This document shows positions 2-10,817 of a DNA stretch of 10,817 nt, piece by piece. Position numbers and translations under genes: made by a program. A model generated the notes under the pieces. It was not told where the DNA came from. It worked only from the letters and a program-made list of their open reading frames with translations, and did no database searches. The DNA is from an uncultured Clostridia bacterium. GTDB taxonomy: Bacteria > Bacillota > Clostridia > Oscillospirales > Ruminococcaceae. The stretch is from assembly GCA_945931735.1 (NCBI GenBank), contig CAMEPN010000024.1:1-10817 (forward strand), given 5' to 3'. Every line of letters starts with the position of its first letter. Positions within the stretch are counted from its first letter, which is position 1.

Positions 2-718
2 GTCACCAACGCAAACGGCAATCAGGCGGGACTTCAGAGCGTTTGCTATGCGGCGGACGTTCTCCGCAACGGCGACGAGAGCATAATGGTCGCGAGCGGC
101 ACCGACGAGAACACCGACACTATCGAGTATCTCTACGAAAAGCTCGGTCTGCTTGGAAATTCCAAGCCGTATTCCCTCGATAAAGAGGGCTTTACGCTCG
201 GCGAAGGCTCGGTTTCCCTCGTTATCGAAACAGAGGACAGCGCGGAAAAGCGCGGCGCGAAGAAGTACGCGGAGCTTGTCGGCTGCGCGTCGGCGCACAA
301 GTCGGTCGATTTCGGAAAGGTGACAGGCTCGGACAGCGCGCTTAAGCAGGCGGTGCTGGACGCGTGCGCGGCTGCGGGCATATCTCCCGCGGACATTGAC
401 GCGGTATGCGGCTTTGCGGACGGACACGAGGCGGTCGACGCTATCGAGCTTTCGGTTTACCGCGAGATATTCGGCGAGATCCCCGTGTTCTGCGTAAAGG
501 ATACCATGGGCGAAGCGCGCGCGGCGGCGAGCGCAATGCAGGCAGCGTATGCGGCGGAGATTCTTTCGGGCGAGGCGGGGACTTCTCTTCCCGCTTACAG
601 GATAACTGCGGACGGCGTTTGTGCGATAACTGCGGACGCGGCGGGCTATCAATATATTCTCGCGGCGGCATTCGGCGCGGGCGGCTCGTATTCGGCGGTA
701 ATTCTCAAAAAGGTGTGA
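2..718 (+). CDS. Ketoacyl-synthase-fold protein, 3' part only; probably a non-catalytic chain-length-factor-like subunit
   Basis: The reading frame is open from base 2 with no start in the window, so this is the C-terminal ~238 residues of a protein normally ~400 long. Similarity to FabF-type 3-oxoacyl-ACP synthases is clear: the GEGSVSLVIE stretch, EKRGAKKYAELVG, and the C-terminal FGAGGSYSAVILKKV, which matches the FGFGG...LIFKK end of FabF. Aligned by eye to E. coli FabF, the catalytic Cys in TACTSG falls on Asn (ANGNQAG, first residues of the window), the first His (HGTST) falls on Phe (GFADG), and the second His (GH) falls on Glu (GE), while the preceding Lys is kept. Loss of all three catalytic residues resembles the chain-length-factor partner of type II polyketide and aryl polyene KS heterodimers. 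The assignment to the KS fold is firm; the non-catalytic role is inference. It heads the cassette that follows, separated by 56 bases that hold a hairpin. Confidence 0.85.
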   Translation, partial: VTNANGNQAGLQSVCYAADVLRNGDESIMVASGTDENTDTIEYLYEKLGLLGNSKPYSLDKEGFTLGEGSVSLVIETEDSAEKRGAKKYAELVGCASAHKSVDFGKVTGSDSALKQAVLDACAAAGISPADIDAVCGFADGHEAVDAIELSVYREIFGEIPVFCVKDTMGEARAAASAMQAAYAAEILSGEAGTSLPAYRITADGVCAITADAAGYQYILAAAFGAGGSYSAVILKKV

Positions 719-724
719 TATATC

Positions 725-754
725 GGGCGGGGAGAGCGATTTCTCCGCCCTTTT
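725..754 (+). terminator. Terminator-like hairpin inside the operon
   Basis: The left arm GGGCGGGGAGA (725-735) pairs with TCTCCGCCC (742-750), with two extra G on the left arm, a six-base loop and TTTT immediately after. It lies between the KS-like gene and the ketoreductase gene. It may attenuate read-through or protect the upstream mRNA end. The T run is short and no obvious promoter follows, so complete termination here is unlikely. Confidence 0.45.
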
Positions 755-774
755 CCCGAAATTAGGAGGATAAA

Positions 775-1518
775 TTGGAAAATGAAACAAAAGTCGCGCT
801 GGTGACCGGCGCGTCGCGCGGAATAGGCAGGGCGTGCGCGCTTAAGCTGGCGGAGTGCGGGTACGACGTTGCGGTGAACTACAACAGCAACGAAGCAAAG
901 GCGCAGGAGGTCGTTTCCGCGATAGAGGCAACAGGCAGGCGCGCGATAGCTGTCAAGGCGGACACGGCTGACTTAAAGGCGGTTCAGAATATGTTCCGCG
1001 AGGTGCATAAGGCGTTCGGCAGGCTGGACGTGCTGGTGAACAACGCGGGCGTTGTGGACGACGCGTATCTTCTTATGATAAACGAGGACTCGCTCTCGCG
1101 CAGCCTTGACATCAACATAAAGGGCTATTTCCACTGCGCGCAGCAGGCGGCTCTAAAGATGATGAGCAGGAAGCAGGGCAAGATAATCAACATCTCGTCG
1201 GTAAGCTCGGTGCTTGCGGTCGAGGGGCAGGGGGTATATTCCGCGACAAAGGGCGCGGTGAACTCCATGACGGCTACTCTCGCAAAGGAGCTTGCGCCGC
1301 GCGGGATAACGGTGAACGCGGTCGCTCCGGGGTTCATCGAAACGGAGATGATCGACGCTATCCCCGAGGACAAGAAGGAGGAGTACCTAAAGGCTGTCCC
1401 CATGCACAAATTCGGCACGGCGGCGGACGTTGCGAACGTTGTCGCGCAGCTCTGCTCGGACGCTTTCGCGTACATGACGGGGCAGGTCATCGTGCTTGAC
1501 GGGGGGCTTAGCTTATGA
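775..1518 (+). CDS. fabG: 3-oxoacyl-ACP reductase, FabG-type SDR
   Basis: This 247-residue short-chain dehydrogenase is the standard FabG length. It would reduce the beta-keto group of an ACP-bound chain with NADPH. The Rossmann motif TGASRGIG is at residues 11-18, NNAG at 89-92, the structural Asn at 114 (DINIKG), and the catalytic Ser142, Tyr155 and Lys159 lie in ISSVSSV and YSATK. The end MTGQVIVLDGGLSL is typical of FabG. The start is TTG at 775, preceded by AGGAGGA at 764-770; the nearby ATG at 782 is out of frame. Its stop overlaps the ATG of the dehydratase gene (ATGA), so the two are probably translationally coupled. Family membership is certain. The symbol is by family; the context suggests a pathway-specific paralogue rather than the housekeeping FAS II enzyme. 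Confidence 0.93.
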   Translation: MENETKVALVTGASRGIGRACALKLAECGYDVAVNYNSNEAKAQEVVSAIEATGRRAIAVKADTADLKAVQNMFREVHKAFGRLDVLVNNAGVVDDAYLLMINEDSLSRSLDINIKGYFHCAQQAALKMMSRKQGKIINISSVSSVLAVEGQGVYSATKGAVNSMTATLAKELAPRGITVNAVAPGFIETEMIDAIPEDKKEEYLKAVPMHKFGTAADVANVVAQLCSDAFAYMTGQVIVLDGGLSL

Positions 1519-1964
1519 TGGATCTTATGGAGATAAACTCGCGGATAAAGCAGCGCCCGCCGTTTCAGATGATAGAGCGCGTGGTAGAGCTGGAACCCAA
1601 TGTTTCCGCGAAAGGGATAAAGTGCGTTTCGGTAAACGAGCCTTATTTCATGGGGCATTTCCCCGACGCGCCGATAATGCCGGGCGTGCTTCTGATAGAG
1701 TGCGCGGCGCAGCTTTGCAGCCTTGTAATTGCTGCGGAAAACGCCGCGGCGGACGCGGACAAGCTTTACGTCCTGCTAAAGGTAAAGGACTTCAAATTCC
1801 TTAAGCCCGTTATTCCGGGCGACAGGCTGGAGATCGAGGTAAAATGCACCCTCGCGAGCGCGGCGGCGTATGAGTTTTCGGCGGTCATTTCGGTGGACGG
1901 AAAGGTGCGCGCGAAGGGCAGTATGCTCTTCACGGCGATAGATAAGAGCGCGGTTTATGAGTGA
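1515..1964 (+). CDS. fabZ: (3R)-hydroxyacyl-ACP dehydratase, FabZ-type hotdog protein
   Basis: This 149-residue single hotdog-fold protein fits the FabZ length. It would dehydrate the 3-hydroxyacyl-ACP made by the preceding reductase to a trans-2-enoyl-ACP. The FabZ active-site segment is intact: GHFPDAPIMPGVLLIECAAQ at residues 47-66, with catalytic His48 and Glu62. An N-terminal PFQMIERV segment corresponds to the substrate-entry region of FabZ. The ATG at 1515 overlaps the fabG stop by four bases; in-frame ATGs at 1518 and 1527 are alternatives, and a G-rich run at 1501-1506 could serve as a weak ribosome binding site. It overlaps the downstream transferase gene by eight bases. No enoyl reductase is visible in the window, so the double bond may be kept, as in a polyene pathway; that last point is inference. 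Confidence 0.92.
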   Translation: MMDLMEINSRIKQRPPFQMIERVVELEPNVSAKGIKCVSVNEPYFMGHFPDAPIMPGVLLIECAAQLCSLVIAAENAAADADKLYVLLKVKDFKFLKPVIPGDRLEIEVKCTLASAAAYEFSAVISVDGKVRAKGSMLFTAIDKSAVYE

Positions 1965-2613
1965 TATCAGTATAGATTTTTCCGCCTGCATCGTCACGGG
2001 CGGCGAAGGGCTTCGCGTGCGCGCGGAAGAGGCAGCGGGCTGCTACTCCCCGCAGAGCGGTTATTTTGACGGGCTGTTTGAAAAGGAGGGCGCGGCGTTC
2101 GAGGAGAGCGCGTGCGGGTTCCTCCTGCTTGACAGCATGATCCAGTCGCGGCGGCTCGACCGCAGCTCGATAAGGCTGGAGCGCGCCGAGGGCGGCAGAC
2201 CGTTCGCGGCGTATTACGGGCTGGATTTCAGCATTTCGCACAGCGGCGGCTGCGCGTTCTGCGCTATGGCATACGGAAAGGACGCGAAGGCGGGCGTTAT
2301 CGGCGCGGATATCCAGCGCGAGCGGGAATATTCCGACGAGAAAATGTCGGAGCTTGCTATGGCTTTCATGAGCGAGGAGGAGCTTGACGCGTTCAGACGT
2401 TCCGCGGACAAGCGCGCGGAGTTTTTCACTGCTTGGACGCGGCGCGAGGCTTATACCAAACGGCTCGGCGGCGGGATTTTCGACCATCTCGGCGACAGCG
2501 TTCAGCTCGGCGCGGCGTTCCGCGGCGGGGTCATTTCCTGCTGCGGCGCGAAATATTACTACTGCATTGACACAGCGGCGGAGGTTACTGCCGCGGACGA
2601 GGAGAATATATGA
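1957..2613 (+). CDS. 4'-phosphopantetheinyl transferase, Sfp/AcpT type
   Basis: This 218-residue protein would transfer phosphopantetheine from CoA to the conserved Ser of an acyl or peptidyl carrier protein. Visible motifs in the expected order are GRPFAA at about 80-85, FSISHSGG at 91-98, GVIGADIQ at 113-120 with metal-binding Asp118, and W160-TRREAYTK with Glu164 and Lys168. Arg replaces the more usual Lys before that Glu. At about 220 residues it is the Sfp/AcpT class, not the ~120-residue AcpS that normally serves housekeeping ACP. It overlaps the dehydratase gene by eight bases and the next gene by four (ATGA). A dedicated Sfp-type enzyme inside an FAS-like cassette argues for a specialised carrier protein encoded nearby, not seen here. 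Confidence 0.88.
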   Translation: MSDISIDFSACIVTGGEGLRVRAEEAAGCYSPQSGYFDGLFEKEGAAFEESACGFLLLDSMIQSRRLDRSSIRLERAEGGRPFAAYYGLDFSISHSGGCAFCAMAYGKDAKAGVIGADIQREREYSDEKMSELAMAFMSEEELDAFRRSADKRAEFFTAWTRREAYTKRLGGGIFDHLGDSVQLGAAFRGGVISCCGAKYYYCIDTAAEVTAADEENI

Positions 2614-3314
2614 AGGTTCTTGTTTTTAACGGAAGTCCGAAAGCGGACCGAAGCAACACGCTGAACATCACAAAGGCGTTTCTGAGCGGTTTCCCGGACG
2701 ACGCCGAGGTTGAGTATGTCAATATTTACCGCATGAACATCAAGCCGTGCGTCGGCTGTTTTTCCTGCTGGAGCAAAACGCAGGGACACTGCGTTATTCA
2801 GGACGATATGCAGGCGCTCTACGGGAAGATAAGCGAGGCGGACGTAATCATCGAATCGTTCCCGCTGTATTTCTTCGGAATGCCGTCGCAGCTTAAGGCG
2901 ATGACCGACCGCTGCCTGCCGTTCATGCTCCCGTACATGGGAAATCTTGTCGAGGACAAGAACGCGTCGTTCCACGAGCTGCGCGACGAGTCAATGCACG
3001 AGAAGCGGCTCGTCGTCATAACGACCTGCGGCTATGTCGACGCGAAGCCGATGTACCCCGCGCTGCTAAAGGAATACGACCTTATCTGCGGCGACGGAAA
3101 CTACACTGCGATACTCTGCCCCGAGGGCGAGCTTTTCATCGCGGAAAAGGCTAAGCGCCAGCGCGAGGGCTATCTTTCGGATATCGCAAAAGCGGGCGCA
3201 GAGTTTGCTCGGGACCTCAGGCTAAGCCCGGAAACTATGGCGCGTATATCAAAGCCGATCCTCTCCCCGAAAGGCTTTGAAACGATAACCCTTGCCCACT
3301 GGGGAAGTCTTTGA
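2610..3314 (+). CDS. Flavodoxin-fold NAD(P)H-dependent oxidoreductase with iron-sulfur-flavoprotein-like Cys motif
   Basis: This 234-residue protein belongs to the NADPH-dependent FMN reductase/flavodoxin-like superfamily. The N-terminal phosphate-binding loop FNGSPKADRSNT (residues 6-17) would hold FMN, and ESFPLYFFGMPSQLKAMTDR (84-103) is the second typical flavin-site segment. Cys47, Cys50, Cys53 and Cys61 form a C-x2-C-x2-C-x7-C pattern, which fits the compact cysteine motif described for iron-sulfur flavoproteins; whether a cluster is bound cannot be told from sequence. Its ATG overlaps the transferase stop, so it is translated with the cassette, and a terminator follows about 50 bases after its stop. 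It could reduce a quinone or enone product, or supply electrons; the substrate is unknown. It is longer than the ~180-190 residues common in the family, with an extra C-terminal segment. Confidence 0.82.
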   Translation: MKVLVFNGSPKADRSNTLNITKAFLSGFPDDAEVEYVNIYRMNIKPCVGCFSCWSKTQGHCVIQDDMQALYGKISEADVIIESFPLYFFGMPSQLKAMTDRCLPFMLPYMGNLVEDKNASFHELRDESMHEKRLVVITTCGYVDAKPMYPALLKEYDLICGDGNYTAILCPEGELFIAEKAKRQREGYLSDIAKAGAEFARDLRLSPETMARISKPILSPKGFETITLAHWGSL

Positions 3315-3638: not shown

Positions 3639-5741
3639 TTGTCAGTAACAGTGCCCGAAAAATATAACGTTCCCCTATACCTGTTCCATCGGGGCGAAAA
3701 TTCGCGCGCTTATGAGTTCTTCGGTTCCCATAAGGAAAACCGCGGCGGGAAAAACGGCGTCGTTTTCAGAGTGTGGGCACCGCACGCAAAATCCGTCAGC
3801 GTCGTGGGTGATTTTAACCACTGGGACAGAAACCGCTGCTATATGAACAAAATAAGCGACGGCGGTATATGGGAGGCTTTCATCGAGGGGATAAAGCAGT
3901 TCGACAACTATAAGTACAGCGTCGAAGCCCCCGACGGGCTTATCAAGCTGAAGGCGGACCCCTACGGCTTCCACATGGAAACGCGCCCGAACACCGCGAC
4001 AAAATTCTACGACATAGAGGGCTTCCCGTGGAGCGACGAAAAATATCTCCGCGAGCGCACCGAGAAGAATATCTACGACAGCCCCGCGAATATTTATGAA
4101 GTGAACGCCGGCTCGTGGAAGCGCGACGGCGAGAATTACTTAGACTACCGCCGCCTTGCCGACGAGCTTATCCCGTATGTAAAGGAAATGGGATATACCC
4201 ATATCGAGCTTATGCCGATAGGCGAGTTCCCGTTCGACGGGTCTTGGGGGTATCAGCAGATAGGCTACTTCGCGCCGACCTCCCGCTTCGGAACGCCGCA
4301 CGACTTCATGGCGTTCGTGGACAAATGCCACAGCGAGGGCATCGGGGTCATTCTCGACTGGGTGCCCGCGCACTTCCCGAAGGACGCGGCGGGACTTTAC
4401 GAGTTCGACGGACAGAGCTGCTACGAATACGAGGACCCGCTCAAGCGCGAGCACAAGAGCTGGGGCACGCACATCTTCGACTGGGGCAAGCCCGAGGTGC
4501 AGTCCTTCCTCATCTCAAACGCGAATTACTGGATAGAGAAATACCATATCGACGGTCTGCGCGTGGACGCGGTAGCTTCCATGCTGTACCTCGACTATGA
4601 CAGGCGCGACGGCGAATGGCGCCCGAACTCCAAGGGCGGACACGAGAACCTCGAGGCGATCGCGTTCTTCCGGAAGCTCAATTCCGCGCTTTTCCGCGAC
4701 CACCCGAATATCATGATGATAGCGGAGGAGTCGACGGCGTGGCCGCTGGTAACAAAGCCCGCGGACATAGGCGGACTCGGCTTCAACTTCAAATGGAACA
4801 TGGGCTGGATGAACGATATGCTCAGGTACATGAGCATGGACCCGCTCGGCAGACCGTACAACCATAACCTTGTTACATTCTCGTTCTACTATGCGTTCTC
4901 CGAAAACTTCATACTCCCGATAAGCCACGACGAGGTCGTATACGGGAAGTGCTCAATGCTCGACAAGATGGGCGGGCCGCGCGAATACCGCTTTAACAGC
5001 CTGCGCACATTCCTCGGGTACATGGCGGCGCACCCCGGAAAGAAGCTCATGTTCATGGGACAGGAGTTTGCGCAGTACAAGGAATGGAACTTCCAGACCC
5101 AGCTCGACTGGGAGGTAATGGAGTTCGAGCCGCACTACAAGCTGCATGAGTACGTTAAGGCGCTCAACAAATTCTACAAGGACACCCCCGCTCTGTGGGA
5201 ATGCGACACAAGCTGGGAGGGCTTCAGCTGGATATCCGCGGACGACAGCGCGAACAGCGTTATCGCGTTCAGAAGAATTTCCCGCAGCAAGGAAGAGCTT
5301 ATAATCGTTTGCAACTTCCAGCCTGTAAGACACGAGGTATACGATATCGGCGTGCCGTTCTACGGGGATTATACCGAGGTGTTCAACTCCGACGACGTTA
5401 AGTTCGGCGGCAGCGGCATTTCCAACGGAACGCTCCGCGCAAGGAAAGACCCGATGCACGGTCAGGAATACAGAATATCCCTTGACCTGCCCCCGATGTC
5501 CGTCCTTTATTTCGAGGTGAAGAAGCTTGAGGAGCCGGAAACCGAGGATACCGACGAAACGGAGATAACCGCGGCAGAAGCGGAAGCTGTTGTTCCCGAA
5601 GCGGAAAAGGCTGCTCCCGAAGCGGCAGAAAATGCTCCCGAAACGGAAGAAGCTGCTCCCGAAAAAGCAGACGCGCCCGCTAAGGCGGCAGCTCCGAATA
5701 ACAGGGGACGCTCCCGAAAATTCAAAAAGCGCCACAGATAA
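3639..5741 (+). CDS. glgB: 1,4-alpha-glucan branching enzyme GlgB with repetitive C-terminal tail
   Basis: This 700-residue GH13 enzyme cuts an alpha-1,4-glucan and re-attaches the piece by an alpha-1,6 bond, branching glycogen. An N-terminal CBM48 domain is shown by [21 protein letters not shown] (~44-64). The catalytic barrel carries [17 protein letters not shown] (~191-207), nucleophile Asp310 in GLRVDAV, acid/base Glu363 in IAEEST and Asp431 in SHDEVVYGK. An all-beta C domain runs to about residue 626 (SVLYFEVKK). About 70 extra residues follow: an acidic Ala/Pro/Glu stretch with four 7-residue repeats, then the basic end [13 protein letters not shown], which ordinary GlgB lacks. The start is TTG at 3639 behind GGGAGGG (3626-3632), with no in-frame ATG nearby. 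It is the first gene of the glg operon; glgC follows after 52 bases. Confidence 0.96.
5592..5675 (+). repeat. Four 21-bp tandem repeats in the glgB tail
   Basis: Four consecutive imperfect 21-base units start at 5592, 5613, 5634 and 5655, sharing the core CCCGAA after GCT or GTT. They encode [21 protein letters not shown] and APEKADA, a disordered-looking Pro/Glu/Ala heptad series. Such coding repeats can change copy number by slippage. Confidence 0.75.
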
Positions 5742-5793
5742 ATTACGGCACAAGCCGAGAAATAAATTTGAACGACCGAACAGGAGGATAAAT

Positions 5794-6999
5794 ATGAACC
5801 ATATCAAAAAGGAATGTGTTGCCATGCTGCTTGCGGGCGGACAGGGAAGCCGCCTTTACGCGCTCACACAGGACATGGCAAAGCCTGCCGTTCCTTACGG
5901 CGGAAAATACAGGATCATTGATTTCCCGCTCTCTAACTGCGTAAACTCCGGCATAGACACGGTCGGCGTACTCACTCAGTATCAGCCGATGGTGCTCAAC
6001 GAATACATAGGCAACGGTCAGCCGTGGGGACTTGACAGAGCGCACGGCGGCGTACATGTTCTGCCCCCGTATGAAACCGCAGCGGGAAAGAGCTGGTATT
6101 CCGGCACGGCGAACGCTATCTATCAGAATATCGGCTTTGTCGACAGGTATAACCCCGAATATGTAGTTATTCTTTCCGGCGACCATATTTACAAGATGAA
6201 CTACGCAAAGATGGTAGACTTCCACAAGAAGAACAACGCCGACGCGACTATCGCGGTGCTCGAAGTTCCGTGGGAAGAGGCTCCCCGCTTCGGCATAATG
6301 AGCGCGAACGAGGACGGCGAGATATACGAATTTGCGGAGAAGCCCAAGGAGCCTAAGAGCAACCTTGCTTCCATGGGTATTTATGTGTTCACATGGAGCA
6401 AGCTGCGCCAGTATCTCATCGACAACGAGAACGACGAAACGGCGACAAAGGACTTCGGCAAGAACATCATTCCCGCAATGCTTGCAGACAAGCAGAAGAT
6501 GATGGCTTATCATTTCGACGGCTACTGGAAGGATGTCGGGACTATCGACTCCCTGTGGGAGGCGAACATGGACGTTCTCGACCCGAACGTACCGCTCGAT
6601 CTGCTTGACGACAGCTGGAAGATATACTCCCGCAACCCCGTTATGCCGCCGCATTATGCAGGCCCGAACAGCCAGATCGAAAACTCAATGGTAGCCGAGG
6701 GCTGCGAGATAAACGGCATGATCGACTTCTCCGTTCTGTTCGCGGGCGTTACCGTAGAGGAGGGCGCGATAGTGCGCGACAGCATTATCATGCCGAACAC
6801 CGTTATCAAGAAGGGCGCGGTGATTGAATACGCTATCGTCGGCGAGGACTGCGTTATCGGCGAGGGCGCGCACATAGGCGAGCGTCCCGAGCTTGTCGAG
6901 GACAAGTCGAGCTGGGGCGTTGCGGTAATCGGTCACCACGTCAACGTATCCGACAAGGCGGTCGCTCCGCCCAAGGCTATGATCTCCAAAGATATATAA
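5794..6999 (+). CDS. glgC: Glucose-1-phosphate adenylyltransferase, catalytic subunit GlgC
   Basis: This 401-residue enzyme makes ADP-glucose and pyrophosphate from ATP and glucose-1-phosphate, the committed step of bacterial glycogen synthesis. The nucleotide loop [10 protein letters not shown] is at residues 12-21 and is followed by [20 protein letters not shown] at 30-49, the ADP-glucose pyrophosphorylase signature. Further landmarks are [20 protein letters not shown] and [15 protein letters not shown], then C-terminal left-handed beta-helix repeats (about 290-385). The start is the ATG at 5794 behind AGGAGG (5782-5787). The frame is open upstream to an ATG at 5590, but that extension overlaps the glgB tail and is Lys/Arg-rich low complexity, so it is not used. 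It probably forms a heteromer with GlgD, encoded next. Confidence 0.96.
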
Positions 7000-7021
7000 G
7001 ACAGGAAAGGATGTTTTTGAT

Positions 7022-8146
7022 ATGGCAAGTATGGCTAACGTTTTAGGACTGATTTTTGCTAATATGCATGAACAGAACCTTCCCGAGCTGACGAAGGCGA
7101 GAGCTATGGCGAGCGTTCCGTTCGGGAGCAAGTACCGTCTGGTCGATTTCCCGCTGTCCAGCATGGTGAACTCGGGCATCACTCAGGTCGGCATTATAAC
7201 CAAGCAGAATTATTACTCCCTGATGAACCATCTCGGAATGGGCAGCGAATGGGATCTTGCGAGAAAGACAGGCGGTCTGCATATCCTCACTCCCTACGGC
7301 AGAGAGGGCACGGGAATGTACCGCGGCAGGCTTGAGGCGCTGTCGGGCGCGGCTGAATTTATCCGCGAGAGCAACGCAGAATATGTCATCATGTCGGACA
7401 GCAACTTTGTTGCGAACATGGATCTCAGACCCGTTATCGACTTCCACGAGGAGAGCGGCGCGGATATCACCTGCGTTTACGGAAAGGTGGTTTACACTGC
7501 CGAGCGCGCTACGCATCAGACGGTGCTCTGCGTGAATAACGACAACGTTGTTTACGACGTGCTTTCTCACCCCGATATGAGCGGCGAGATGAACGTTGCG
7601 CTCAACATTTACGTTATGCGCCGCCGTTTCCTTGAGGACATTATCCGCGAGAGCGAATGCCGCGCGCAGTACAGCTTTGAAACCGATATTCTTCAGCACA
7701 AGCTGCATGAATACAAGATAATGGGCTACAAGTACGACGGCTATTTCGAGATAATCGATTCGCTCAAGACCTACTACAAGGCTACTATGGACATGATGAA
7801 GCGCGAGATACGCCGCGAGGTATTCGCGCTCGACACGCCCATTTACACAAAGGTACGCGACGTTGCTCCCGCGAAATACGGAATTGACTGTGTTGTCAAA
7901 GGCTCGCTCATTGCCGACGGGTGCATTATCGAGGGCACTGTCGAGAACTGCGTGCTTTTTCGCGGCGTTAAGGTAGGAAAGGGCGCTGTCGTAAAGAACA
8001 GCATTCTGCTCCAGAACACCGTTATCGAGGAGAAGGCTTCGTTTATCGACGCGATAACCGATAAGGACGTTACGCTAACCAAGAACCGCACCATTACCGG
8101 GTCGGCTGATTATCCGATCTTTGTAAACAAGGGCGCGACGGTTTGA
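7022..8146 (+). CDS. glgD: Glucose-1-phosphate adenylyltransferase, regulatory subunit GlgD
   Basis: This 374-residue paralogue of GlgC keeps the ASVPFGSKYRLVDFPLSSMV segment (~30-49) but lacks the GGxGxRL nucleotide loop, which is replaced by LIFANMHEQNLPEL near the N-terminus. This is the hallmark of GlgD, the non-catalytic partner that activates GlgC in Firmicutes. EYVIMSDSNFVANMD occupies the place of the GDH active-site strand, and a C-terminal beta-helix is recognisable (IADGCIIEGTVENCVLF and following). The ATG at 7022 is preceded by AGGAAAGGA at 7003-7011 with ten bases between; an in-frame ATG at 7031 is an alternative. It lies 22 bases after glgC and is closed by a terminator 25 bases after its stop, so no glgA or glgP follows in this operon. 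Confidence 0.95.
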   Translation: MASMANVLGLIFANMHEQNLPELTKARAMASVPFGSKYRLVDFPLSSMVNSGITQVGIITKQNYYSLMNHLGMGSEWDLARKTGGLHILTPYGREGTGMYRGRLEALSGAAEFIRESNAEYVIMSDSNFVANMDLRPVIDFHEESGADITCVYGKVVYTAERATHQTVLCVNNDNVVYDVLSHPDMSGEMNVALNIYVMRRRFLEDIIRESECRAQYSFETDILQHKLHEYKIMGYKYDGYFEIIDSLKTYYKATMDMMKREIRREVFALDTPIYTKVRDVAPAKYGIDCVVKGSLIADGCIIEGTVENCVLFRGVKVGKGAVVKNSILLQNTVIEEKASFIDAITDKDVTLTKNRTITGSADYPIFVNKGATV

Positions 8147-8217: not shown

Positions 8218-8548
8218 TTACGATACTACGATCTTGACCTTTTTGTAGGACGTTCCGCATTTGGCGGTGATTATCGTGGAGCCTGCTTTTTTCGCGGTTA
8301 TTTTTCCTTTGGAGCTGACCGTCGCGACGGAGGATTTGGAGCTTTTCCATGTCACCGTGCCGCTGCCGCCCGAGAGGGCTGCGCCGAGGGAGAGGGTGTC
8401 GCATTTTCCGGGCAGAATATTTGATGCCGATTTACCGCTTGATATTGCTGCTGCGGTGCTACAAATGCTGTCCGCCATCTGCCGAAATTGCAGCCGAAGC
8501 AGCCGCGCTAATCGCAATGACCGCTGCAATTTTTGTGAAAATCTTCAT
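8218..8548 (-). pseudogene. Small secreted Big_2 (bacterial Ig-like) protein, frameshifted
   Basis: Two minus-strand frames together make a sensible secreted protein. From ATG at 8548 the first frame encodes a classic signal peptide, MKIFTKIAAVIAISAAASAA, but it stops at 8461-8459 after 29 codons. From about 8478 the frame one base further on runs to a stop at 8220-8218 and encodes a C-terminal Big_2-like domain with WKSSKSSVATVSSKGKITA and a GSTIITAKCGT strand, the pattern seen in bacterial adhesin and surface Ig-like domains. Removing one base near 8470-8478 would join them into an about 109-residue exported single-domain protein. The domain has two Cys that could form a disulfide. It may be a genuine pseudogene, a sequencing or assembly error, or less likely a +1 recoding site. 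If translated alone, ATG at 8478 would give a leaderless 86-residue product. No strong ribosome binding site precedes 8548. Confidence 0.6.
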
Positions 8549-8640: not shown

Positions 8641-8652
8641 GGGGTGATGAGT

Positions 8653-8865
8653 ATGTTCAGGCTAAAAGAGCTGCGCGAGGCACGCGGGCTGTCGCAGGTG
8701 CGCCTTGCTATCGATCTGAATATCAATCAGAACTCCGTCAGCCGCTACGAAAGCGGCGCGCGCGAGGCGGACTACAAGACGCTTATCGCCATTGCGGATT
8801 ATTTTGATGTTTCGCTGGATTATCTTCTCGGCAGGACGGACTGCCCCTTGTTTATAAAGAAATAA
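8653..8865 (+). CDS. Small XRE/Cro-CI family transcriptional regulator
   Basis: This 70-residue protein is essentially one helix-turn-helix domain: LKELREARGLSQVRLAIDL (4-22), the recognition part NQNSVSRYESG, then the typical IADYFDVSLDYLLGRTD end. It would bind DNA as a dimer and most likely repress. The ATG at 8653 is preferred because AAGGGGTGAT (8639-8648) upstream is an excellent anti-Shine-Dalgarno match; GTG at 8644 and ATG at 8647 lie inside that site. It is divergent from the Big_2 gene, with two palindromes between them that it may bind, giving autoregulation and control of the neighbour. There is no extra ligand or protease domain, so the signal it responds to is unknown. Confidence 0.9.
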   Translation: MFRLKELREARGLSQVRLAIDLNINQNSVSRYESGAREADYKTLIAIADYFDVSLDYLLGRTDCPLFIKK

Positions 8866-10136: not shown

Positions 10137-10403
10137 TCATTCAAAAATAACGGTCAGCCAAGGGTTGCTTTCGGCGCTGTCCGAGAGGACGCGGAAAAAT
10201 GATTCCGCTTTTCGCTCGCCGAGGTTTTCCGCGAGCGCTCCGCAGTTCAGCACGGTTATTTCCGCTTCGGCGTCGGTCAGGCAGTCGTACAGCGCGTCAA
10301 GGTTCATTCCGTAATATCGCGGGAAACCCAGTTCCTCGGAAAGCAGCTCGTGGAGCTGACCGGCGGTGTGTATTTCTGCGGCGTTTATAGTAAGCTTTGT
10401 CAT
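10137..10403 (-). CDS. Barstar-family ribonuclease inhibitor
   Basis: This 88-residue protein aligns over its whole length with barstar of Bacillus amyloliquefaciens (about 90 residues). The hallmark segment LPEYYGENLDALWDCL of barstar appears here as FPRYYGMNLDALYDCL (27-42), keeping the Asp (Asp36 here, Asp35 in barstar) that plugs the barnase active site, and Asp40; the barstar Trp38 is Tyr here. It should bind and neutralise the ribonuclease encoded just upstream, in the cytoplasm. The ATG at 10403 follows GGAGAGG with good spacing; an in-frame upstream ATG at 10439 lies inside the ribonuclease gene and is not needed. It starts one base after the ribonuclease stop, so the two are translated together. 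Confidence 0.93.
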   Translation of the reverse strand: MTKLTINAAEIHTAGQLHELLSEELGFPRYYGMNLDALYDCLTDAEAEITVLNCGALAENLGERKAESFFRVLSDSAESNPWLTVIFE

Positions 10404-10404
10404 G

Positions 10405-10817
10405 TTATTCCTCTCCGTAAAGCAGCGTGAAGCTTTCATAATGGTCGTCGGTGTAGTAGATAAGCCCGTCGTTCGAGAATACTATGCGCTTTGCGCCGCG
10501 GCTGTCCGCGCCGAGCGTGTCGATATCGCATTCGGTGTAGCTCCTGCCCTCCTTTTCGGGGAGCAGTCCCTCGTAATTCCCGAAGCGGCTCCCGCCGATG
10601 CATTTCCCGGGCGCGTAGGGCTCAAGCGAGCCGCCGTTCCAGCCAAGCTCCTGCGCCTGCTTTTTGGTGATGAAATTCTCGGGGAGATGCCCGTACAGAT
10701 GCAGATATAGCGCAACGTCGTCGCGGGTCGTGTATATCCCGTCCTCGGTGACCGCGGGTGCAGGCTCCGACGCGTCGGCGGTCATGCCGTTTTCCTCGGA
10801 ATATTCGTGAGCAGTTT
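10405..10817 (-). CDS. Barnase-like guanyl-preferring ribonuclease, N-terminus cut by window edge
   Basis: The frame is open to the right edge, so the N-terminus and any signal peptide are missing. The visible C-terminal ~110 residues match barnase: YLHLYGHLPENFITKKQAQELGW, APGKCIGGSRFGNYEGLLP, SYTECDID and TDDHYESFTLLY. Counting from the internal Met at 10785, the catalytic positions are all kept: Lys41 (barnase Lys27), Glu85 (Glu73), Arg96 and Arg100 (Arg83, Arg87) and His115 (His102), so it should be an active RNase. An acidic, Pro/Ala-rich linker (SEPAPAVTEDG) precedes the domain, consistent with a secreted or tethered enzyme; that is inference because the start is not visible. Its inhibitor gene lies one base downstream on the same strand. 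Confidence 0.93.
   Translation of the reverse strand, partial: TAHEYSEENGMTADASEPAPAVTEDGIYTTRDDVALYLHLYGHLPENFITKKQAQELGWNGGSLEPYAPGKCIGGSRFGNYEGLLPEKEGRSYTECDIDTLGADSRGAKRIVFSNDGLIYYTDDHYESFTLLYGEE

Follow-up and report, generated by a model that had tools for sequence, protein, structure and literature searches.

A fused KS-CLF cassette in a genus of Ruminococcaceae and its possible role in supplying an unsaturated acyl chain to membrane lipid

KS-CLF enzymes with known products usually make unreduced, polyene or polyunsaturated chains. In the Pfa 'secondary lipid' synthases, KS and CLF lie on one chain within a megasynthase, as in the didomain of PfaC (6riw), and in PUFA clusters the KS-CLF is paired with an enoyl reductase (ER) and a phosphopantetheinyl transferase (PPTase) (excerpts of PMC3098273). 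In the highly reducing type II PKS for ishigamide, KS and CLF (6kxd) are separate polypeptides. Aryl polyene clusters also carry an ACP and an acyltransferase partner, and their aryl starter is supplied by a lyase and a CoA ligase. Their KS-CLF (ApeO-ApeC) is accompanied by a ketoreductase (KR), a dehydratase (DH) and ApeR, a second, homodimeric FabB-like KS (PMC8358021, in the sections cited), and their hosts are Gram-negative. In Clostridium thermocellum, the celluxanthene/flavoaffinin (cex) pathway is an anaerobic clostridial polyene pathway with a PPTase and an ACP, but relies on a type I PKS that works iteratively, together with two KASIII enzymes and a ligase (excerpts of PMC12144888).

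The window (10,817 nucleotides from an uncultured Clostridia bacterium of the Ruminococcaceae) starts at base 1 of its own contig and holds five genes, each at the position given in a preliminary description of this DNA:

2..718, + strand: C-terminal CLF-type part of a fused KS-CLF (Pfam Ketoacyl-synt_C, 3e-9; open at its 5' end)
775..1518, + strand: FabG-like beta-ketoacyl-ACP reductase, KR (Pfam adh_short_C2, 7e-65; TTG start behind AGGAGG)
1515..1964, + strand: FabZ-like 3-hydroxyacyl-ACP dehydratase, DH (Pfam FabA-like, 6e-24)
1957..2613, + strand: Sfp-type PPTase (Pfam ACPS, 3e-9)
2610..3314, + strand: flavodoxin-fold FMN reductase-like flavoprotein with a C-x2-C-x2-C-x7-C motif (Pfam FMN_red, 4e-18)

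The reading frames overlap by 4 bases (KR/DH), 8 bases (DH/PPTase) and 4 bases (PPTase/flavoprotein), as had been described, but the KS ORF stops 56 bases short of KR. DH passes the NCBIfam FabZ model NF000582 (128 bits against a cut-off of 113) and falls below the other FabZ model, TIGR01750 (126 against 155); its GHFP His and its Glu, which we take to be the active site, are conserved in the alignment. The nearest NCBIfam model for KR, an SDR protein, is FabG (265 bits, below the cut-off of 298).

Because the contig begins there, ORF 2..718 is incomplete at its 5' end. It aligns with residues 545-782 of a 782-aa fused protein from a related locus (L003; 89%), and in its relatives a KS and a CLF-type second KS share a single chain of about 740-800 aa. 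A single open frame of 742-802 aa is found in 35 of the 38 matching genomes of the genus; in the remaining three (the window's own genome, G1164 and G1165) the frame is shorter or split. Cys159, His291, Lys322 and His327 are invariant in 48/48 aligned fused proteins. In the L003 protein, the residues of the C-terminal half that align with Cys, His and His are Ile, Phe and Glu, and the second halves of the other aligned rows, as well as ORF 2..718, likewise lack the catalytic Cys/His pattern. Judged by these residues, a catalytic KS half is joined to a dead, CLF-type half that has lost the Cys and His, the pairing typical of KS-CLF condensing enzymes. By comparison with its relatives, the 'CLF-like' ORF 2..718 is not a whole CLF but what remains of the C-terminal end of such a fused protein. 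Gln552 of the CLF half, invariant in 48/48 and kept in ORF 2..718, is offset by one residue to the C-terminal side of the lost Cys in the alignment; the classical CLF Gln takes the place of the Cys itself, and Gln552 is a candidate equivalent of it.

The AF2 model of the fused protein (pLDDT 88, pTM 0.92) has as its first-ranked Foldseek match the KS-CLF of the PUFA synthase PfaC (6riw; TMq 0.79 over 915 alignment columns), at 18% identity and an rmsd of 7.0, and how exactly the halves are placed is uncertain; VIA-align gave one-domain rows only for this model, which speak neither for nor against the 6riw match. One ORF encodes two KS domains in a single polypeptide, as in Pfa synthases, and in the model the likeness to PfaC is one of architecture, not of close kinship. 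The likeness to Pfa synthases extends to the clustering of ACP, KR, DH and, in the window's genus, PPTase, and to the lipid destination proposed below. Unlike Pfa synthases, the enzymes here are free-standing, with a single small ACP and a FabZ-type DH, and neither a PfaA-type megasynthase with MAT and tandem ACPs nor a TIM-barrel ER such as PfaD was seen in the cassettes read of types A to C.

The fused gene is carried by 38 of the 43 genomes of the genus, so that the cassette is nearly universal there, and is sporadic outside it (family and class counts rest on profile A2 at E <= 1e-40, by which divergent members may be missed). Frames of 416-423 aa with a single KS, found in three of the five matching phylum-sample genomes, are probably ordinary FabF, and these three genomes were left out of the fused-protein counts. 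Genome G771 (locus L076) has a fused frame 33% identical to the protein of L004 in a different, distant arrangement; BLAST found no flavoprotein there, and a neighbouring 134-aa protein is an AcpS by eye. A short tree search gave an open three-way split between type A (the window's genus), types B and C together, and type D; a horizontal transfer out of the window's genus into the type D lineage is not borne out by this tree.

In the genus, the full cassette reads PlsC-like acyltransferase, ACP (single, about 80 aa), KS-CLF, KR, DH, Sfp-type PPTase and Cys4 flavoprotein. The order is the same across type A loci, and its conservation excludes a chance association; compared with L004, type A proteins are 82-98% (KR), 80-97% (DH) and 68-97% (flavoprotein) identical. 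The PPTase is a dedicated one, as had been proposed, in type A (13/13 loci reaching that side), but not in the other lineages (0/10). A PlsC-like acyltransferase lies upstream in 12/12 type A and 4/4 type B loci reaching that side (Pfam run on four of those 16: L004, L046, L077 and L083). Elsewhere the core is accompanied by PlsC together with a patatin-like gene, or else by an additional PlsX. The PlsX-like gene adjoins the cassette in 3/3 type C loci (by Pfam for L081, by a profile match for G071, the genome of L048, and by eye for L084). G071 has a second PlsX away from the cassette, which scores better (331 vs 225 bits). A pair of PlsX genes is not confined to type C, since the type B genome G1131 likewise has two, both located off the contig that carries the cassette. 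These PlsC, patatin-like and PlsX partners point to a membrane acyl lipid as the product.

The cassette is distinct from housekeeping FAS II in the window's own genome, where contig C134 carries a second fabZ, KS gene (fabF) and fabG, together with an ORF that is fabH-like by eye. The window's KR is 88% identical to the KR of the L004 cassette, vs 43% for the genome's own housekeeping FabG. No AcpS was found in this genome (70% complete). Upstream sequence in relatives shows the PlsC-like acyltransferase, ACP and catalytic KS, not the standard acc/fab housekeeping set, and the proposal of a dedicated reducing KS-CLF cassette, of a type II PKS/FAS-hybrid kind, is supported. The contrast with housekeeping FAS II is tempered by type D, a distant lineage, in which the core lies beside a standard fabH-K-D-G-F-Z set that includes a FabK-like reductase gene (Pfam on L073 only); that gene belongs to the adjoining set. 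In 3/3 type D loci there is no DH between KR and flavoprotein, and neither PlsC nor PlsX is adjacent, so that a lipid destination of the product lacks this support in type D.

We favour, at a probability of about 0.5, a dissociated PUFA-synthase-like KS-CLF pathway that supplies phospholipid with a (poly)unsaturated acyl chain. The PPTase would arm the ACP, housekeeping FabD would supply malonyl-ACP, and the KS-CLF would extend the chain iteratively to a length set by the CLF. KR and DH would leave double bonds, since the cassette has no classical enoyl reductase, although a housekeeping enoyl reductase could still act. The PlsC-like enzyme would take the acyl chain, a polyene or polyunsaturated one, off ACP and place it in membrane glycerolipid, a transfer in which the extra PlsX of lineage C may take part, and the flavoprotein would account for one obligatory redox reaction of the chain. 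A search of open-licence PMC literature found no description of the cassette or its product.

The flavoprotein is the most constant partner: it is present in 23/23 loci whose sequence reaches that side, vs 19/23 for a DH between KR and flavoprotein and 13/23 for the PPTase; it is no optional tailoring gene. Its four Cys are invariant in 23/23. Iron-sulfur flavoproteins have the motif C-x2-C-x2-C-x4-7-C, which the C-x2-C-x2-C-x7-C spacing fits, and cluster binding is putative. The nearest solved sequence is the flavone ene-reductase FLR (7d38; E 9e-9, residues 1-106 of 234 only), an enzyme of Flavonifractor plautii (PMC7862272, in part). By the thresholds for FLR-type ene-reductases in the cited part of that source (identity >=30%, coverage >=80%, E <=1e-10), the flavoprotein is not one of them. 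The Foldseek search also returned FLR, at rank 27 (TMq 0.59, 19% identity), below azoreductases and quinone reductases by E-value; these are the main fold neighbours, and the flavoprotein was rejected as a confirmed ene-reductase.

It is possible, if unlikely, that the flavoprotein serves as the missing enoyl/ene reductase in a complete PUFA-like synthase of discrete enzymes, in which it would replace PfaD/FabK and selectively reduce some double bonds to give an oxygen-independent polyunsaturated or specially reduced chain for phospholipid. Its constancy, the FLR matches, the PfaC-like predicted structure and the ER and PPTase of PUFA clusters all favour this; the short FLR alignment, the higher-ranked azoreductases and quinone reductases, a Cys4 motif suggestive of an electron-transfer cluster, and the retention of the flavoprotein in type D beside a FabK-like reductase speak against it.

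The almost universal presence of the cassette in the genus would also be compatible with a membrane fatty acid that is specialised yet ordinary. A chain that is special though saturated or mono-unsaturated (for example, a chain-length-controlled acyl), completed in trans by a housekeeping enoyl reductase, would agree with the genus-core distribution, the PlsC/PlsX partners and the FabK-like gene beside type D. Such a product would not need a dedicated flavoprotein and departs from the usual products of KS-CLF enzymes, and is unlikely.

The first proposal, an aryl polyene or else a related pigment for export, is improbable. A KS-CLF with KR and DH but no classical ER does resemble the core of aryl polyene or highly reducing type II PKS systems (PMC8358021, in the sections cited), but the KS-CLF is fused here, as it is not in ishigamide biosynthesis either, the hosts are Clostridia, and PlsC/PlsX and flavoprotein partners set the cassette apart from the ishigamide system. 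Among the cassette genes (Pfam on part of them) neither a gene for an aryl starter nor a further KS gene or a transporter was seen; each type A-C cassette read has one KS gene and none like ApeR, which leaves the aryl polyene label without support. An AMP-binding ligase was found near 5 of the 14 type A loci examined, always beyond the operon and encoded by the other strand (L078 has no downstream sequence; L004 and L079 have <5 kb), and the window itself lacks its upstream side. The near-universal distribution and PlsC/PlsX companions also argue against a pigment. The celluxanthene/YAS pathway, considered for its anaerobic polyene pigments, was rejected on the ground that cex depends on an iterative PKS of type I (PMC12144888 and PMC11839114, both in excerpt). 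Ruminococcus flavefaciens is yellow-pigmented and lacks cex (PMC12144888, in excerpt); a tie between its pigment and the cassette is neither supported nor excluded by the names among the matches listed (120 per protein search, most rows nameless), which are Ruminococcus sp., Oscillospiraceae, Clostridiales, Clostridia, Firmicutes, Lachnospiraceae, Anaeroplasma and Acholeplasmatales (MAG-labelled).

A small molecule that is cyclised, like cispentacin or coronafacate, is most improbable as the product: AmcG-type cassettes are reported from Firmicutes (excerpts of PMC10698177) and AmcF, AmcE and AmcB are among the weaker NCBIfam matches, but FabF and FabZ models outscore them and all three fall below their cut-offs (AmcE 64 vs 140, AmcB 37 vs 80 and, for the L003 fused protein, AmcF, NF058662, 272 vs 325 bits, on which cispentacin identity was rejected).

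The favoured KS-CLF lipid pathway has a more far-reaching form, rather unlikely as a whole: a dissociated, oxygen-independent polyunsaturated-lipid synthase of Clostridia, with fused KS-CLF, free KR, DH and ACP, and the Cys4 flavoprotein as a new enoyl/polyenoyl-ACP reductase, whose product would enter membrane phospholipid directly and mark the lineage by its lipid. If the favoured pathway is right, a whole genus and scattered little-studied Clostridia would make an undescribed unsaturated membrane lipid through a stand-alone condensing enzyme of the PUFA-synthase type. A widespread gene set would then be tied to a lipid chemistry within reach of lipidomics, chain-length setting by KS-CLF could be studied in a simple system, and a new class of enoyl reductase might come to light.

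The operon that the preliminary description read at window positions 2–3314 is present: its five open reading frames (ORFs) lie where they were placed and carry the expected domains. The ketoreductase (KR) and dehydratase (DH) genes overlap by 4 bases, DH and the phosphopantetheinyl transferase (PPTase) by 8, and PPTase and flavoprotein by 4, and the KR start codon is TTG with AGGAGG ahead of it. The source genome is fragmented (2.15 Mb in 377 contigs, 70% complete). The window starts at base 1 of contig C24 and covers 10,817 bases of it; the contig end cuts the first ORF (2–718), leaving it without a start. In seven related loci (L003–L009), obtained by a PPTase scan of one genome per species, there is one ORF of ~740–790 aa whose final third matches the window ORF; the fragment aligns with residues 545–782 of the L003 protein at 89%. 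The full-length ORF contains two ketosynthase (KS) domains (Pfam; four relatives tested). In its first half, Cys159, His291, Lys322 and His327 are invariant across 48 fused proteins, a count that leaves out the window protein because its 5' end is missing. The L003 protein's second half has Ile aligned at the Cys position and Phe and Glu in place of the two His. One residue past the Cys position is Gln552, which all 48 proteins share and the window fragment retains. AF2 modeling of the L003 protein gave pLDDT 88 and pTM 0.92, and the best Foldseek PDB match to the model is 6riw, the KS–chain-length factor (CLF) of the PUFA synthase protein PfaC (TMq 0.79, 18% identity and rmsd 7.0; 915 alignment columns); the remaining 49 matches listed are one-domain matches to ketosynthases. 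By its two KS domains, half-specific residue pattern and predicted fold, the full-length counterpart of the window ORF joins KS and CLF in one polypeptide. Thus, the earlier label of "CLF-like protein" fits the CLF-type half and not the whole protein, since the relatives' ORF is a KS-CLF fusion.

Related cassettes fall into four gene arrangements.

Cassette gene orders and the ~93-aa protein
Type A (the window's genus): ~93-aa protein, PlsC-like acyltransferase, ACP, fused KS-CLF, KR, DH, PPTase, flavoprotein
Type B (L049, L082, L083, L085): patatin-like gene, acyltransferase, ACP, KS-CLF, KR, DH, flavoprotein
Type C (L048, L081, L084): ACP, KS-CLF, KR, DH, flavoprotein, PlsX-like
Type D (L073–L075, another family of the class): ACP, KS-CLF, KR, flavoprotein; adjoins FabH, FabK-like, FabD, FabG, FabF, FabZ
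L004 4690–4971, L044 11241–11504 and others: ~93-aa protein

The patatin-like call comes from Pfam on L083 and from a similar N-terminus at the other loci; the PlsX-like call from Pfam (L081), a genome search (the genome of L048) and inspection by eye (L084); and the type D neighbors from Pfam on L073 only (FabH, FabK-like, FabD) or BLAST (FabG, FabF, FabZ). The flavoprotein gene is adjacent in all 23 type A–D loci covering that side (L078 ends before its position), and four of these 23 show no DH between KR and flavoprotein, among them L049, whose contig stops 159 bases later. Among type A loci whose relevant side is covered, the acyltransferase is found in 12/12 and the PPTase in 13/13; no PPTase was found in the 10 cassettes of other types, so the proposal of a dedicated PPTase stands for type A and not beyond it. 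The conserved ~93-aa protein lies upstream of the acyltransferase in 8/12 type A loci and has, by eye, a secreted look; its L004 copy matched neither Pfam nor NCBIfam, and its L044 copy had no Pfam match.

Several other genes were observed around the cassettes. Five further type A loci (L006, L044, L046, L077, L080) carry an AMP-binding acyl ligase on the opposite strand no more than 5 kb away, a gene identified by eye as SecA-like (in L005 a fragment) is on the upstream side in 7 of 14 type A loci examined, and glgB and glgD follow the cassette in L003 as in the window.

Genes flanking the cassettes
Window 3639–8146: glgB-glgC-glgD glycogen genes, directly after the cassette
Window 8221–8529 (−): small protein with Big_2 Ig-like domain, upstream of L13 and S9 ribosomal protein genes
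Window 8644–8865 (+): Cro/C1-type HTH regulator, upstream of the same ribosomal protein genes
Window 10140–10815 (−): barnase-like ribonuclease (PF00545, runs past the window end), then barstar-like inhibitor (PF01337)
L073 11908–13376 (−): asparaginase-like protein and a 210-aa protein without Pfam match, preceding the type D cassette

The cassette had been proposed to be distinct from housekeeping FAS II, and this is borne out by a separate set on another contig (C134) of the same genome, where FabZ, FabF (415 aa), FabG and a FabH-like ORF (by eye) lie together; compared with the cassette enzymes of L004, the first three show 34%, 37% and 43% identity. A second PPTase (218 aa) is encoded on contig C31. 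Searches of three type B genomes and one type D genome found in each only one PPTase-family protein, of AcpS size (120–133 aa), and a type C genome has two (142 and 213 aa), neither on the cassette contig. Type B, C and D cassettes, having no PPTase of their own, must therefore rely on a general enzyme. In the GxDxE metal motif, 9 of 10 aligned cassette PPTases (window 1957–2613) have Gln where the genome's other PPTase has Glu; the exception is L003, which retains Glu.

To map distribution, genomes were searched with a CLF-half profile (A2, E ≤ 1e-40). The fused gene occurs in 38/43 genomes of the window's genus (25/27 of the high-quality ones), in 14/396 of a family sample (7 from this genus) and in 4/391 of a class sample (the window's genome plus three from a single further genus). 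A phylum sample gave 5/398: the window's genome, a distant fused frame and three frames discounted as members for having one KS only. Protein searches returned at least 120 clusters each (57–100% identical); among the matches listed, all have both KS-domain annotations, and the few that are named bear generic ketosynthase names, mostly from MAGs. A tree was built from 20 N-halves, 20 C-halves and 14 single KS (FabF) proteins (a short search, with long branches for type E). In it a branch sets each class apart from the rest (support 93, 99 and 98), and types A, B+C and D split alike in both halves. This pattern fits a single KS-CLF fusion predating the split of the lineages.

PUFA synthases carry KS-CLF in one chain, and their clusters also encode ACP, KR, DH, ER and PPTase (PMC3098273); for them an intramolecular KS-CLF dimer has been proposed (PMC13311796). 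The fused KS-CLF is common to these synthases and the cassette, whereas the cassette encodes free enzymes and one ACP, without PfaA or PfaD. Aryl polyene clusters have a two-subunit KS-CLF plus ApeR (PMC8358021), in contrast to the cassette's single chain, and celluxanthene is made by a type I PKS (PMC12144888), unlike the cassette. A term search of the main text of a type II PKS cluster catalog (PMC10132072) returned "Firmicutes" once and "fused/fusion" not at all, and no description of the cassette was found in the open-licence PMC literature.

We infer a polyene or polyunsaturated product. The flavoprotein is predicted to have a flavodoxin-like fold related to azoreductase, quinone reductase and the flavone ene-reductase FLR (model pLDDT 83, pTM 0.85), and FLR is its nearest solved sequence (E 9e-9 over the N-terminal 106 residues). 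C-x2-C-x2-C-x7-C is invariant in 23/23 flavoproteins and recalls iron-sulfur flavoproteins. The flavoprotein would act in the pathway at a required redox step, possibly ene reduction.

In alignments, the ACP has the serine motif DSI/DSV, the acyltransferase keeps NH-x4-D and FPEG, KR keeps Y-x3-K and DH keeps GHFP...E. Among NCBIfam models, the L004 acyltransferase best matches part of the one for acyl-[ACP]–phospholipid O-acyltransferase, far below the full-length cut-off. The genome of L048 (G071) carries a standard PlsX elsewhere (331 bits vs. 225 for the cassette copy), and a type B genome (G1131) likewise has two PlsX copies, so copy number alone proves little. Taken together, the kept motifs, the acyltransferase match and the PlsX evidence favor a product passed to glycerolipid. 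The cassette is a real, conserved and uncharacterized variant of KS-CLF biosynthesis that most likely feeds membrane lipid.
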